DNA from: Bacteroidota bacterium
GTDB lineage: Bacteria > Bacteroidota > Bacteroidia > B-17B0 > Aurantibacillaceae
Assembly (NCBI GenBank): GCA_020162035.1
Contig: JAIUNM010000005.1
Coordinates: 124,001 to 188,000 of the forward strand
Length of the DNA stretch: 64,000 nt
Direction: 5' to 3'
This document shows, piece by piece, positions 7,757 through 15,315 of this stretch (the first letter of the stretch is position 1; the number at the start of each line of letters is the position of its first letter). The notes under the pieces are model-generated. The model had not been told where the DNA came from. It worked only from the letters and a program-made list of their open reading frames with translations, and did not search any database. Both the position numbers and the translations under genes were made by a program.

Positions 7757-9175
7757 TTATGCTTCAACAGGTTTTTCTATTCCTTTAACTTTTACAATTT
7801 GTGCCATCATTTCAGCCTCCATTACAGGTTTGTTGTTTACATAGGCAACCCCTCTCATGTGGCATATTCCTCTTCTAATTGGTGTTACTAAATTTAAGCT
7901 AAACACTACAGTATCACCCGGAATAACTTTTTGTTTAAATTTTACACCATCTATTTTCATAAAATAAGTTAGGTAATTTTCAGGGTCTGGTACAGTTTTT
8001 AAAACTAATACACCTCCGCATTGTGCCATTGCTTCAATTAACATTACTCCTGGCATTACGGGTTCGCCAGGGAAATGGCCTTTAAAAAACTCTTCGTTTA
8101 ATGTAACGTTTTTAACCCCTATTACATGTTCTAATGATAATTCCATAATTTTATCTACCAACAACATAGGTTGACGGTGAGGTAAAATTTTCATTATGTC
8201 ATTAATGTTTAATAACGGCGGTTTATTTAAATCAACCTTAGGATAATCTTTTTCTATTTTTTGTTTTTTAATAGCGGCTTTAATTATTTTGGCAAAAGCA
8301 ATGTTACCATTATGCCCTGGGCGCGCAGCTAAAACATGTATTTTTAAAGGTTTTCCTACTAAAGCTAAATCTCCAATAATATCTAATAATTTATGGCGTG
8401 CTGGCTCATTATAAAAATGCAAAGCTGTATTATTTAAAACACCTTTTCCTTTAACCTCAACATGTTCTTTATTAAACACCTTTTTTAAATGATCTAGTTT
8501 ATCTTTTGGTAATTCTTTGTCAACTAAAACTATTGCGTTATCTAAATCGCCTCCTTTTATAAGGTTGTGTTGTAATAACATTTCTAGTTCGTGCAAAAAC
8601 ACAAAAGTTCTACACTTACTAATTTCTTGTTTAAATTGAGTTATGTCGTATATTCCTGCATGTTGAGTGCCTAAAACATCGCTATTATAATCAACCATAA
8701 CTGTAATGCGATATGCATCTTGAGGCACAGCTAACATTTCTACTTTTTTAACAGGGTCTTCAAACGTTAAATTATCTGTTAACTCAAAGTATTCTCTTTC
8801 TGCATCTTGTTCCTCTATTTCTGCGGCTTCTAAGGCTTCAATAAATTTCCACGAACTGCCATCCATAATAGGCATTTCAGCTTCTGTCATTTGAATTAAG
8901 CAATTATCAATACCTAAGCCTACTAATGCAGCAAGTACATGTTCTGTTGTATATACTCGTACGCCATTTTTTTCGAGTGTTGTTCCTCGGCTTGTATCAA
9001 CTACCAAATCAGCATCTGCATCAATTATGGGTTGACCTTCAACATCCATGCGTTGAAATTTATACCAATGATTAACGGGTGCGGGATTAAAAGTTATTGT
9101 AACACTTTTACCTGTGTGTAATCCTTTACCCGAAATAGAAACCGCTTGTTTTATTGTTCTTTGCTTATCACTCAT
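7757..9175 (-). CDS. lpxC/fabZ: Bifunctional LpxC deacetylase / FabZ 3-hydroxyacyl-ACP dehydratase
   Basis: A 472-residue fusion known from Bacteroidota. The N-terminal ~305 residues are LpxC, the committed zinc deacetylase of lipid A synthesis: zinc ligands His79 (TEHVLAAL), His261 and Asp265 (RHKLLDIIGD), and catalytic-region His288 (RPGHNG). The C-terminal ~150 residues are FabZ, the fatty-acid dehydratase: LPHRQPMLLVD, the catalytic His367 in FKGHFPG and Glu381 in MLIEAMAQ. The fusion joins the lipid A and fatty-acid branches that compete for 3-hydroxyacyl-ACP. TATATTTA just upstream (9193-9200) is a likely promoter. Confidence 0.97.
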   Translation of the reverse strand: MSDKQRTIKQAVSISGKGLHTGKSVTITFNPAPVNHWYKFQRMDVEGQPIIDADADLVVDTSRGTTLEKNGVRVYTTEHVLAALVGLGIDNCLIQMTEAEMPIMDGSSWKFIEALEAAEIEEQDAEREYFELTDNLTFEDPVKKVEMLAVPQDAYRITVMVDYNSDVLGTQHAGIYDITQFKQEISKCRTFVFLHELEMLLQHNLIKGGDLDNAIVLVDKELPKDKLDHLKKVFNKEHVEVKGKGVLNNTALHFYNEPARHKLLDIIGDLALVGKPLKIHVLAARPGHNGNIAFAKIIKAAIKKQKIEKDYPKVDLNKPPLLNINDIMKILPHRQPMLLVDKIMELSLEHVIGVKNVTLNEEFFKGHFPGEPVMPGVMLIEAMAQCGGVLVLKTVPDPENYLTYFMKIDGVKFKQKVIPGDTVVFSLNLVTPIRRGICHMRGVAYVNNKPVMEAEMMAQIVKVKGIEKPVEA

Positions 9176-11316: not shown

Positions 11317-14049
11317 ATGGGTAAAATAAAAGTAGGCATTTTTTTTGGTGGTCGTTCAAAAGAACGAGAAATTTCTTTTGCAGGAGGTAGAACAGTTTAT
11401 GACAATTTGAATAAATCAATTTTTGAAGCTATTCCTTTGTTTGTTGATTCATTTGGTAATTTTGTTTTGTTAGACTGGAACTTTGTTTACAAAGGTACAA
11501 TAAGAGATTTTTATCCGCCTGTTGAATTTATTCCAGCAACAAATATAGATTTTCAATTTTACGCCGAAAATTTAGGAAATTTATCTGTTAAACAACAAGA
11601 TGAACTCATTTCAAAAATTGGCAAAAAAGTACAATTAACTGAACTACAAAATTTAATTGATTTTGCTTTTTTAGCATTGCATGGGCCTTATGGCGAAGAT
11701 GGTAGAATACAAGGATTATTAGAGTACGTAGGAATCCCTTATTCAGGAAGTGGGATTTTACCAAGCGCTATTGGTATTGATAAAAGCGTTCAAAAACGTT
11801 TAATGGTAAATGCAGGATTTAACAGTCCAAAATATTTTACCATAGATAGAGAAGATTGGATTAACGGAAATGTAAAAGGTGTTTGGCAAAAAGCTAAAAC
11901 AGAAATTGGTTTACCAATAGTAATTAAGCCAGCAAACCAAGGCTCATCAATTGGTATTTCAATATTTAATGAAGATAATGAAACCAATTTTATGGCTGCG
12001 GTTGAAAAAGCTTTTTTTACAAAATGGCTCGATTGCAATTATTGGAAAAAATTATCAGATAAAGAAAAAACAGAATTTGTTCGTAGTTTATCCGATATAC
12101 GTGAAGGAATAGGAATGCCATTAAAAATTAATGTAAATCTTGTCAATTCGAGCGAAGTCGAGAAAGAAAACGTATTAATATTTTACAATCCTTACGATTT
12201 AATTTCTTTTTTAAATAATAATTGTAACTCAACTGATGGCTTTGTGTTAGAAGCACTAGACGGCGAAAGTACTGTTATGATTGAAGGGTTTATTGATGGA
12301 AAAGAATTTTCTTGTATAGTTTTAGAAGATACAGATTCTAACGGTTTGGTAATTGCTTTACCTCCAACTGAAATAAGAAAAGGAAAAGAACTATTTGACT
12401 ATAGAAGCAAATATTTACCAGGATTGTCTCGTAAAATTACACCCATAGAAGTTGATGATAAACATATTAATGCTATTAGAACAGAATGCGAACGTTTATT
12501 TTCTGAATTATCTTTTGATGTGTATGCCCGTATTGATGGCTTTTTAGGAACAGACGGGAAAGTTTATTTAAACGATCCCAATACAACTTCTGGGATGATG
12601 CCATCTTCTTTCTTTTTTCATCAAGCGGCTGAAATTGGTTTAACCCCTTCTCAATTTTTAACGTATATCATTCGCACATCGTTAAGTAAACGTATTAAAA
12701 ATGCTAAAGGCGATTATTCGTTTGTTCCATTATTAAATAAACTCGACTCATTAATTATTAGTGATAAAAGCGCAACAAACACTAAAATTCCTGTTGCAGT
12801 AATACTAGGAGGTTACTCTTCAGAAAGACACATATCAGTTGAGAGTGGAAGAAATATTTTTGAAAAATTGGCTTCGTCAGAAAAATATGCTCCAATTCCT
12901 GTTTTTTTAACTGGCAAAAGTAATAATCATTTAATGTATCAGTTGCCTATTAATGCACTTTTAAAAGATAATGCAGATGACATTAATGATAAAATAAATA
13001 ATTGGAAAATTCATCCTGTTGTAAAAAACATCATTGATAAATGCAATGTAATTACAGAAAAATATGGATCATCAAATAATTTAAACGCACCTAAACAATT
13101 AAATTACGAAACTTTAGCAAAAGAAGTAAAACAAGTATTTATTGCCTTGCATGGTAGGCCAGGCGAAGATGGTGCAGTGCAAGAACAATTAGAAAAAGTG
13201 GGTTTATCTTACAATGGTTCTGGAAAAGAAAGCTCATCAATTACAATTGATAAATACACTACCAATGAAATTTTAAATAAAAATGGTTTTTTAGTTGCTA
13301 AGCATTGTTTAATTACAATTGATGATTGGAATGAAAACAAAGAAAAAATAAAACAAAAACTTCAAAACGATTTTTCGTACCCATTAATTTCAAAGCCGGT
13401 TGATGATGGTTGTAGTAGTGCTGTTAAAATGATAAAAAACTTTGAAGAGTTTGAGGCTTTTGCAACTTTAATGTTTAGAACTACTCAAGCATTCGACTCT
13501 AAAGCTGCAAGTTTATTACACATAAAAGACAAAGAAGAATTTCCGCAAAAGCAAGTTATTTTAGTTGAAGAGTTAATTAGTAAAAATGGCGCAAAACATT
13601 TTTTAGAAATTACAGGCGGAATGCTTACTAAATTTAATAGTAAAGGAGAAATTGAATATGAAGTATTTGAGGCCTCTGAAGCATTAGCAAGTGGAGAAAT
13701 TTTAAGTTTAGAGGAAAAATTTTTAGCAGGACAAGGTCAAAACATTACTCCAGCAAGATATTCGAGAAACGAAACTGAAAGACAACTCATTTCAAATAAA
13801 GTAAAAGAAACACTTGGATCTGCTGCAAAAGTTTTAAATATTGTGGGTTATTGTAGGATAGATGCTTTTGTAAGAATTTTTGACGCCAATAAAGTTGAAG
13901 TAATTTTTATAGAAGTTAATTCTTTACCAGGAATGACACCAGCCACATGTATTTATCATCAAGCAGCAATTAACGGTTATAAACCTTATAATTTTATTGA
14001 TAGTATTTTAGATTTTGGGTTTAAACGAAACACAGTTTCGGTAAATTAA
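11317..14049 (+). CDS. Tandem (two-unit) D-alanine--D-alanine ligase
   Basis: A 910-residue protein holding two complete Ddl-type ATP-grasp units; ordinary Ddl has about 310-360 residues. Unit A (~1-480) has GGRSKEREIS (Glu16), ALHGPYGEDG, GSSIG (Ser210), DYRSKYL (Tyr366) and DPNTTSGM (Asp420, Asn422). Unit B (~490-910) has GGYSSERHIS (Glu503), ALHGRPGEDG, GCSSAV (Cys699), EEKFLAG (Phe802) and EVNSLPGM (Glu866, Asn868). Unit A also carries an insert of ~60 residues after the GSSIG strand. The product D-Ala-D-Ala is needed for peptidoglycan. Unit A has the normal specificity triad but Asp for the usual Mg-binding Glu; unit B the reverse. No other cell-wall gene is adjacent. Confidence 0.9.
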   Translation: MGKIKVGIFFGGRSKEREISFAGGRTVYDNLNKSIFEAIPLFVDSFGNFVLLDWNFVYKGTIRDFYPPVEFIPATNIDFQFYAENLGNLSVKQQDELISKIGKKVQLTELQNLIDFAFLALHGPYGEDGRIQGLLEYVGIPYSGSGILPSAIGIDKSVQKRLMVNAGFNSPKYFTIDREDWINGNVKGVWQKAKTEIGLPIVIKPANQGSSIGISIFNEDNETNFMAAVEKAFFTKWLDCNYWKKLSDKEKTEFVRSLSDIREGIGMPLKINVNLVNSSEVEKENVLIFYNPYDLISFLNNNCNSTDGFVLEALDGESTVMIEGFIDGKEFSCIVLEDTDSNGLVIALPPTEIRKGKELFDYRSKYLPGLSRKITPIEVDDKHINAIRTECERLFSELSFDVYARIDGFLGTDGKVYLNDPNTTSGMMPSSFFFHQAAEIGLTPSQFLTYIIRTSLSKRIKNAKGDYSFVPLLNKLDSLIISDKSATNTKIPVAVILGGYSSERHISVESGRNIFEKLASSEKYAPIPVFLTGKSNNHLMYQLPINALLKDNADDINDKINNWKIHPVVKNIIDKCNVITEKYGSSNNLNAPKQLNYETLAKEVKQVFIALHGRPGEDGAVQEQLEKVGLSYNGSGKESSSITIDKYTTNEILNKNGFLVAKHCLITIDDWNENKEKIKQKLQNDFSYPLISKPVDDGCSSAVKMIKNFEEFEAFATLMFRTTQAFDSKAASLLHIKDKEEFPQKQVILVEELISKNGAKHFLEITGGMLTKFNSKGEIEYEVFEASEALASGEILSLEEKFLAGQGQNITPARYSRNETERQLISNKVKETLGSAAKVLNIVGYCRIDAFVRIFDANKVEVIFIEVNSLPGMTPATCIYHQAAINGYKPYNFIDSILDFGFKRNTVSVN

Positions 14050-14651
14050 CGGTGAAATGTAATACCTAAACCAATAACATCTTGTAAGTTATCAGGGCTG
14101 TTAAAAACATTTCCGTTTGATAAGTGTAAAACGTTTAAACTTATCTCTATTTTTTTATTAATAAAATAGCTTAAACTTATTTGATGATGAAATGCTGCGC
14201 CCATTCCCACAAATCCATCATTTAATTTTTTATTTACAACTTCGCACCAAGCAATCCCTATTTGATAATTAAAATAAGTGTTTTTAAATAATAAAAAGGA
14301 GTTTCTAAATCCACCGCCAATTGCATAATTACCATAATTTGAATGGTGTAAAAAAAGCACCACATTTGTTTTTAAAAGTTTATCGTGTGCAATATTATTT
14401 AAATAGTTTAAAGCGATTTCAAAGGGTAGATAAATGTTATAAGTTAAATTAAAAGGGCTAAAAGATTGTGTAAGGTCTCTGTTTCTATAAGCACCGCCTA
14501 TAAACTCTCCTCTAAATTTTTTAATATATAAATTAAATGCGCCTCTGTTACTACAATTAGATAAATTTATACTATCTAAGCTATTACTTTGAGCAAAACA
14601 ATTGTAATTAATTAAAATTAATGTAACTAATATTTTAAGTTTTTGCTGCAT
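14046..14651 (-). CDS. PagL-like outer-membrane barrel (probable lipid A deacylase)
   Basis: About 201 residues from the ATG at 14651, which puts a signal peptide (KILVTLILINYNCFAQ) at the N-terminus; an ATG at 14666 is possible. Alternating aromatic/hydrophobic strands suggest an outer-membrane beta-barrel. H176-L-S178-NGN near the C-terminus matches the His-x-Ser-Asn active-site motif of PagL, which removes the 3-O acyl chain of lipid A. The Glu expected about 12 residues later is not evident (Gln190, Asp191), so activity is uncertain. It overlaps comF by 17 bases and the convergent ddl stop by three (TTAA). Confidence 0.55.
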   Translation of the reverse strand: MQQKLKILVTLILINYNCFAQSNSLDSINLSNCSNRGAFNLYIKKFRGEFIGGAYRNRDLTQSFSPFNLTYNIYLPFEIALNYLNNIAHDKLLKTNVVLFLHHSNYGNYAIGGGFRNSFLLFKNTYFNYQIGIAWCEVVNKKLNDGFVGMGAAFHHQISLSYFINKKIEISLNVLHLSNGNVFNSPDNLQDVIGLGITFHR

Positions 14652-15315
14652 AGGCAATACTTCCAATGGTTATTTTTATGCCTTCAACAGCTTTTAAATG
14701 TTGCCAGGCAGCTTCTATTGTTGCGCCGGTTGTAATTACATCATCAACCAACAACACATGTTTGTTTATTAATTCATTTGGATTTGTTAATGAAAAAACA
14801 CCTTCTACATTTTGCCAACGCTCGTATTTTCTTTTTTTTGTTTGAGTGCGTGTGTTTGTTTCTCTAATTAAATTATTTGATATTATTGGTAAATTAGACT
14901 GTTTACTAATTCCTTTAGCAAAAATCTCGCTTTGGTTAAATCCTCTCTGTTTTAATTTTTTAGCGTGTAAAGGAATTGGAATTATACAATCCAAATCATT
15001 TAAATCATTTTTAAACTTTAATGCAAATTGGTTACCAATAAATTCAGCTAACTCATTTTGTTCTTGATATTTTATTGAGTGTAGTAGTTTTTGTACTTTT
15101 CCATCTTTTAAAAACACATATAAACAAAACGTGTTTTTAACAGGTATTCGTCCTGCAAAAATTAAATTTATTTTGCTCTTATGTTGATTTACGCTGTTAG
15201 GTAAGTTAATTAGGCATTTATTACACATAAACTGTTCGTGCTTATAAAGAACATCTAAACAAGCTTCGCAATTTCTTGGAAATATTAATGACAAAAAATC
15301 GTTAATAAAACTCAT
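14635..15315 (-). CDS. ComF family amidophosphoribosyltransferase-like protein
   Basis: 226 residues. The N-terminal zinc finger has Cys16, Cys19, Cys31 and Cys34. The C-terminal phosphoribosyltransferase fold has the PRPP loop LLVDDVITTGAT at 188-199. ComF helps DNA uptake in naturally competent bacteria, where it acts on the incoming single strand; in Bacteroidota it is widespread and often unlinked to other com genes, as here. The PagL-like gene starts inside its 3' end. Confidence 0.9.
   Translation of the reverse strand: MSFINDFLSLIFPRNCEACLDVLYKHEQFMCNKCLINLPNSVNQHKSKINLIFAGRIPVKNTFCLYVFLKDGKVQKLLHSIKYQEQNELAEFIGNQFALKFKNDLNDLDCIIPIPLHAKKLKQRGFNQSEIFAKGISKQSNLPIISNNLIRETNTRTQTKKRKYERWQNVEGVFSLTNPNELINKHVLLVDDVITTGATIEAAWQHLKAVEGIKITIGSIAYAAKT

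Follow-up and report, generated by a model that had tools for sequence, protein, structure and literature searches.

The gene at 11317-14049 (+) of the window, the whole 64,000-nucleotide stretch of Bacteroidota DNA that was analysed, is a tandem (double) D-Ala-D-Ala ligase (Ddl). Sequence comparison gives about an even chance to the reading that we prefer, in which D-Ala-D-Ala comes from unit A while unit B remains an active ligase site that takes a different second substrate. Unit B has kept its ATP machinery, yet the residues that select the second substrate are replaced without exception, which suggests that an essential antibiotic target is joined to a second, undescribed ligase activity. 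Ddl is essential and is a target of D-cycloserine. Neither a tandem nor a fused Ddl turned up in the searchable literature, which lacks most subscription journals, and a tandem with a fixed second pocket is undescribed as far as that literature goes. The sole Ddl of many Bacteroidota is such a tandem with a fixed, non-standard second pocket, and if unit B is active, a second product of the form D-Ala-X would be made by these bacteria.

The tandem gene as the sole Ddl of its genomes

The gene is an intact frame of 910 aa without internal stop, and in the encoded protein Pfam finds Dala_Dala_lig_N (PF01820) twice and Dala_Dala_lig_C (PF07478) twice. The protein belongs to the Ddl family by the presence of both domains, each in two copies, and by its PRK01372 score of 363.8 bits (cut-off 243). 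Family models score it as an ordinary D-alanine--D-alanine ligase and so hide a possible second product. The parts of the gene are given below; equivalent residues are numbered after E. coli DdlB from the MG1655 record, and their positions in the pocket are assigned by alignment.

11317-14049 (+): tandem (double) D-Ala-D-Ala ligase gene, 910 aa (frame; two PF01820 and two PF07478)
11317-12732 (+): unit A, residues 1-472, with the canonical triad of Glu16, Ser210 and Tyr366 (aligned to DdlB, DdlA and 45 single Ddls)
12016-12255 (+): insert of about 80 residues in the ATP-grasp part of unit A (alignment)
12574-12576 (+): Asp420, at the metal ligand Glu270 of DdlB (Asp in 74/74 homologues and in the unit-A-only relatives)
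12589-12591 (+): Ser425, at Pro275 of DdlB (alignment)
12778-14046 (+): unit B, residues 488-910, substrate pocket remodelled, ATP/Mg residues kept (domains, alignment)
12823-12825 (+): Glu503, at Glu15 of DdlB, kept (73/73 homologues)
13408-13422 (+): unit B loop Gly-Cys699-Ser-Ser-Ala702, at GSSVG of DdlB with Ser150 and Gly153 (alignment; Cys and Ala invariant)
13699-13725 (+): unit B omega loop ILSLEEKFL, with Leu796 (Tyr210), Lys801 (Lys215) and Phe802 (Tyr216) (alignment)
13912-13914 (+): Glu866, at Glu270 of DdlB, kept (alignment)
13945-13950 (+): Thr877-Cys878, at Ser281-Leu282 of DdlB on the second-substrate side (Thr in 27/27 and Cys in 24/27 representatives)

PF01820 gave exactly two matches, both within one double frame, in 27/27 double-bearing genomes, among them the genome of the window (3.17 Mb, 99.98% complete). 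A second Ddl elsewhere in the genome was not found with PF01820. Other PF07478 matches have the lengths expected for biotin-carboxylase, CarB and PurK-type ATP-grasp proteins, length being the only property compared. All six genomes tested (five with the double and one with unit A only) had one alanine racemase domain each, in frames of 817-874 aa, about as long as the MurF-Alr fusion that Bacteroidota commonly have. As the sole Ddl in 27/27 genomes, and with one alanine racemase domain in each of the six genomes tested for it, the double presumably must supply D-Ala-D-Ala. No stand-alone unit B was seen among the genomes examined.

Conserved and replaced residues in the two pockets

For conservation, 75 homologues from genomes related to that of the window and from GTDB genomes were aligned and gaps were set aside; the survey took one genome per species and included many MAGs. 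The single-unit comparison set of 45 Ddls consisted of sequences from the phylum together with DdlA, DdlB, VanA and a VanG-type ligase.

Both units aligned to DdlB without gaps at the sites in question, and the residue assignments of the original prediction proved right. In unit B, Cys699 (codon 13411-13413, in the segment reading GCSSA) lies at Ser150 and Phe802 (codon 13720-13722) at Tyr216, while Glu503 is kept at Glu15; unit A retains Ser210 and Tyr366. At Glu270, unit A has Asp420 and unit B has Glu866. In the alignment, no other Tyr takes the place of Phe802 in the omega loop. The prediction counted two changes among the three triad residues of unit B, and both are there, but the remodelling goes further, with additional changes at 153, 210, 281 and 282.

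The Cys/Phe pair was conserved in unit B when homologues were aligned (Cys150 in 73/73, Phe216 in 72/72), together with Glu15 (73/73), whereas unit A had Ser150 in 71/71, Tyr216 in 73/73 and Asp270 in 74/74. Cys and Phe of unit B and Asp420 of unit A show no exception in about 70 homologues, the most distant of them at about 50% identity. Single Ddls had Ser150 in 45/45, Tyr216 in 44/45, the exception being VanA, and Glu270 in 43/44; among the singles aligned, Asp at this last position occurred in one divergent sequence only. The dipeptide-type triad Glu15-Ser150-Tyr216 is complete in unit A (70/70), whereas all unit B sequences have Glu/Cys/Phe, with the Phe at Tyr216 that marks Phe-type depsipeptide ligases. 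Three further pocket positions never vary in unit B, with Ala for Gly153, Leu for Tyr210 and Thr for Ser281; Leu282 is usually replaced by Cys and in a few sequences by Ala. Since Cys and Phe are invariant in unit B against Ser and Tyr in the singles, the change most simply arose once, on the unit B stem, and was then retained.

A loss of ATP-binding residues from unit B would have spoken against the original prediction, but every ATP/Mg residue checked is present. Unit B keeps Lys97, Lys144, Glu180, Glu187, Lys215, Arg255, Asp257, Glu270 and Asn272. Unit A keeps the same ATP/Mg and catalytic set as DdlB except for Glu270, which is Asp. Position 275 is Ser in unit A of all doubles, and Pro in unit B, in all single Ddls and in the unit-A-only relatives. 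The insert of about 80 residues is conserved in the doubles and the unit-A-only relatives, has no counterpart in unit B or in single Ddls, and matches no Pfam family.

From DdlB structures, we take Lys215, Tyr216, Ser281, Leu282 and Tyr210 to be the second-substrate side, and Glu15, His63 and Arg255 to be the first-substrate side. The first-substrate set is kept in unit B. With these and the ATP/Mg residues kept and the second-substrate side replaced, the pattern points to a changed second substrate in unit B and not to loss of catalysis.

The double resembles ordinary Ddls such as DdlA and DdlB of E. coli in having an N-domain and an ATP-grasp C-domain in both units, all ATP/Mg residues checked in unit B and all but one in unit A, and the Glu15/Ser150/Tyr216 triad in unit A, and in being the sole Ddl of its genomes. 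It differs from them in having two units per chain, in Asp270, Ser275 and the 80-residue insert of unit A, and in Cys150, Phe216, Ala153, Leu210 and Thr281 of unit B. The Van ligases (VanA and VanB for D-Ala-D-Lac, VanC and VanG for D-Ala-D-Ser) are also of the Ddl family, with a changed second substrate, and VanA is among the better PDB matches of unit B. However, the omega loop of VanA has Glu-Lys in place of Lys-Tyr, the VanG-type ligase, unlike unit B, keeps Ser150 and Tyr216, and Van ligases are located in vanHAX-type clusters, whereas the double lies outside any.

Internal duplication and the lineage that lost unit B

A tree of 102 units set unit A, unit B and the single Ddls apart, each group by a branch of its own (100/99, 100/100 and 98/89). 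Because units A and B each form one clade and jointly stand apart from the singles, with the root among the singles, the double goes back to a single D-Ala-D-Ala ligase that was duplicated internally once. The exact placement of the root is unsure because the branches are long; the stem of unit B has 3.24 changes per column and that of unit A 1.24. The large subunit of carbamoyl phosphate synthetase (CarB) likewise arose by internal duplication (PMC11915815), and its two ATP-grasp units have separate tasks, but it belongs to another family with other chemistry, and the likeness is one of architecture only.

After the duplication, unit B was kept under constraint. Its active-site positions were invariant in 19/22 cases, against 77/423 columns overall (hypergeometric p ~1e-12), where the 22 positions were chosen from knowledge of DdlB and include changed as well as kept positions. 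His63 is among the three non-invariant positions, yet it is invariant in 70 full-length unit B sequences. The mean pairwise distance of unit B was 0.92 of that of unit A in the same 21 species, and against the closest relatives dN was about 0.09-0.13 in both units, with dS about 1 or saturated. This rate and the low dN/dS indicate that unit B is not decaying. Unit B was retained in nearly all sampled species of the group.

Three relatives (Bernardetia, G245 and G304) have unit A followed by a mere stub of the N-terminal part of unit B. They form one clade nested among the doubles in the tree, so that the ATP-grasp part of unit B was lost in them. In these relatives (L082 2498-4369; L100; L101), the stub has lost the GG-x-S-x-E motif and kept a helical piece. 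In G304 (one contig, 99% complete) and G245, the two of these genomes that were searched, the unit-A-only protein is the sole protein with a Ddl N-domain; G245 additionally has a very divergent 310-residue relative of the C-domain. The unit-A-only relatives keep Asp270, which is therefore compatible with being the sole Ddl, and from the position of this protein in G304 and G245, a unit A with Asp270 can probably make D-Ala-D-Ala.

The loss of unit B went with a shift of unit A towards the ordinary Ddl state. Thr424-Ser425 became Ile/Leu-Pro and Phe432 became Leu, as is usual in Ddls: every double has Ser at 275 and Phe at 282 of unit A, and the unit-A-only relatives have Pro275 and Leu282. This one loss event suggests a mutual dependence of the two units. 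Because changes in unit A accompanied the loss, unit A of the double may not be a plain Ddl. For the same reason, reasoning from the unit-A-only species to the doubles is not airtight, and this is chiefly why our confidence in the role of unit A in the doubles is not higher. The unit-A-only lineage serves as a natural control.

Possible roles of unit B and the genomic setting

In the reading that we prefer, we infer three things: unit A does the work of a Ddl within the double, unit B is catalytic, and the second substrate of unit B differs. The protein would be a two-site ATP-grasp ligase derived from one internal duplication, with unit A as the D-Ala-D-Ala ligase feeding MurF. Unit B would bind ATP and Mg, activate a first D-amino acid as an acyl phosphate held by Glu15, His63 and Arg255, and join it to something other than D-Ala, either a hydroxy acid, for instance D-lactate, or some different small nucleophile. 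Such a substrate is proposed because Tyr216, Tyr210, Ser281, Leu282 and Ser150 are replaced. Unit B could also be a second dipeptide ligase, since DdlB carrying Y216F would be expected to retain D-Ala-D-Ala synthesis. It is conceivable, though we would not count on it, that the chain holds two chemically different sites, giving normal D-Ala-D-Ala and a D-Ala-X undescribed in Gram-negatives, and that the sites co-evolve, either one being re-tuned when its partner is lost.

In a narrower form of the preferred reading, unit B would make the depsipeptide D-Ala-D-lactate, like the ligases of Leuconostoc and most lactobacilli, and a fraction of precursors would end in D-lactate. It deserves consideration because Phe or Tyr at the omega-loop site decides between depsipeptide and dipeptide activity in lactic acid bacteria, where F261Y switches LmDdl (PMC5996685), and because Tyr216/Ser150 substitution gives DdlB weak D-Ala-D-Lac activity (PMC7691350); the published findings on which the original prediction drew are sound. 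Unit B, compared with LmDdl of Leuconostoc through its published description, shares the Phe (F261) at the omega-loop position. LmDdl is, however, a single-unit enzyme, and the host of the double is Gram-negative. In unit B four or more further pocket residues are altered, and these changes make a simple depsipeptide analogy unsafe. No vanH or vanX-type neighbours of the double were seen in the neighbourhoods or among the window ORFs, and an M15-peptidase match elsewhere in the genome was present in some double genomes and absent from others, regardless of the double. The NCBIfam model for D-Ala-(R)-lactate ligase, which describes Van-type enzymes, gave the whole protein 197 bits against a cut-off of 550, and that for D-Ser 179 against 520. 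The outer membrane also makes vancomycin an unlikely driver. We therefore regard D-lactate as rather improbable. Where the original prediction offered a depsipeptide or another second substrate, the latter is better supported, because several further pocket residues changed at once, because no van-type partner genes adjoin the double, and because Ser150 became Cys whereas the reported mutant has Ala.

Other explanations give unit B no changed second substrate. It might be a regulatory or structural half that does not ligate at all, but binds ATP and D-Ala, senses D-Ala or D-Ala-D-Ala, controls unit A and takes the place of the second subunit in the usual Ddl dimer. The triad kept by unit A, the stub of unit B retained in the unit-A-only lineage as if for contact, and the changes of unit A upon loss of unit B are consistent with such a half, but all catalytic residues checked (among them Lys215, Arg255, Asp257, Glu270 and Asn272) are kept in unit B, which would not be expected of a purely structural or sensing half, and we consider this role unlikely. 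The labour could instead be reversed or shared, with unit B making D-Ala-D-Ala, unit A (Asp270, Ser275) doing something else or helping, and unit A reverting after the loss. Thr424-Ser425 and Phe432 indeed revert to usual Ddl residues only where unit B was lost, Glu270 and Pro275 are kept in unit B, and Asp at Glu270 is otherwise confined to the one divergent single. However, Ser150, Tyr216, Ser281 and Gly153 are lost in unit B and kept in unit A and in the singles checked (of which VanA alone lacks Tyr216), the unit-A-only sole ligases retain Asp270, which is therefore compatible with function, and there was a single loss event only; this arrangement seems quite unlikely to us. Decay of unit B into a copy without function would agree with its long stem (3.24 against 1.24), but its later rate equals that of unit A, the active site is invariant, dN/dS is low and nearly all sampled species of the group keep it, so that rates and conservation leave next to no room for a decayed unit B in the doubles, and we hold this reading to be highly improbable.

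The double had no conserved operon partner in 31 neighbourhoods and the window, and no neighbours there suggested a second substrate; without a conserved neighbour, the context gives no function. A van-type cluster around the double was sought and not found, and PADLOC gave no match for a role in a defence system. The commonest neighbour, in 12/32 neighbourhoods and absent from the window, was a protein of 145-158 aa without Pfam family, which lies downstream of the double in L040, L042, L044, L048, L062, L064, L066 and others. In G233 (L098), a frame of 1200 aa holds the double followed by a transmembrane stretch and PASTA domains (PF03793, E 1.7e-21), a fusion that fits a cell-wall role. The double of G221 (L099) carries about 30 extra residues in frame (EELKIENSSAAAETPGTEHQALSTKHQAPST), near positions 413-418 of the window protein and directly before the metal-binding strand of unit A; this insert looks like a read-through DNA repeat. 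In the window, the frame adjoining the double at 14046-14666 (-) had a weak, sub-threshold match to the lipid A deacylase PagL (E 0.0016), and the 472 aa frame at 7757-9175 (-) combines PF03331 and PF07977 as an LpxC-FabZ fusion, which is known in Bacteroidota.
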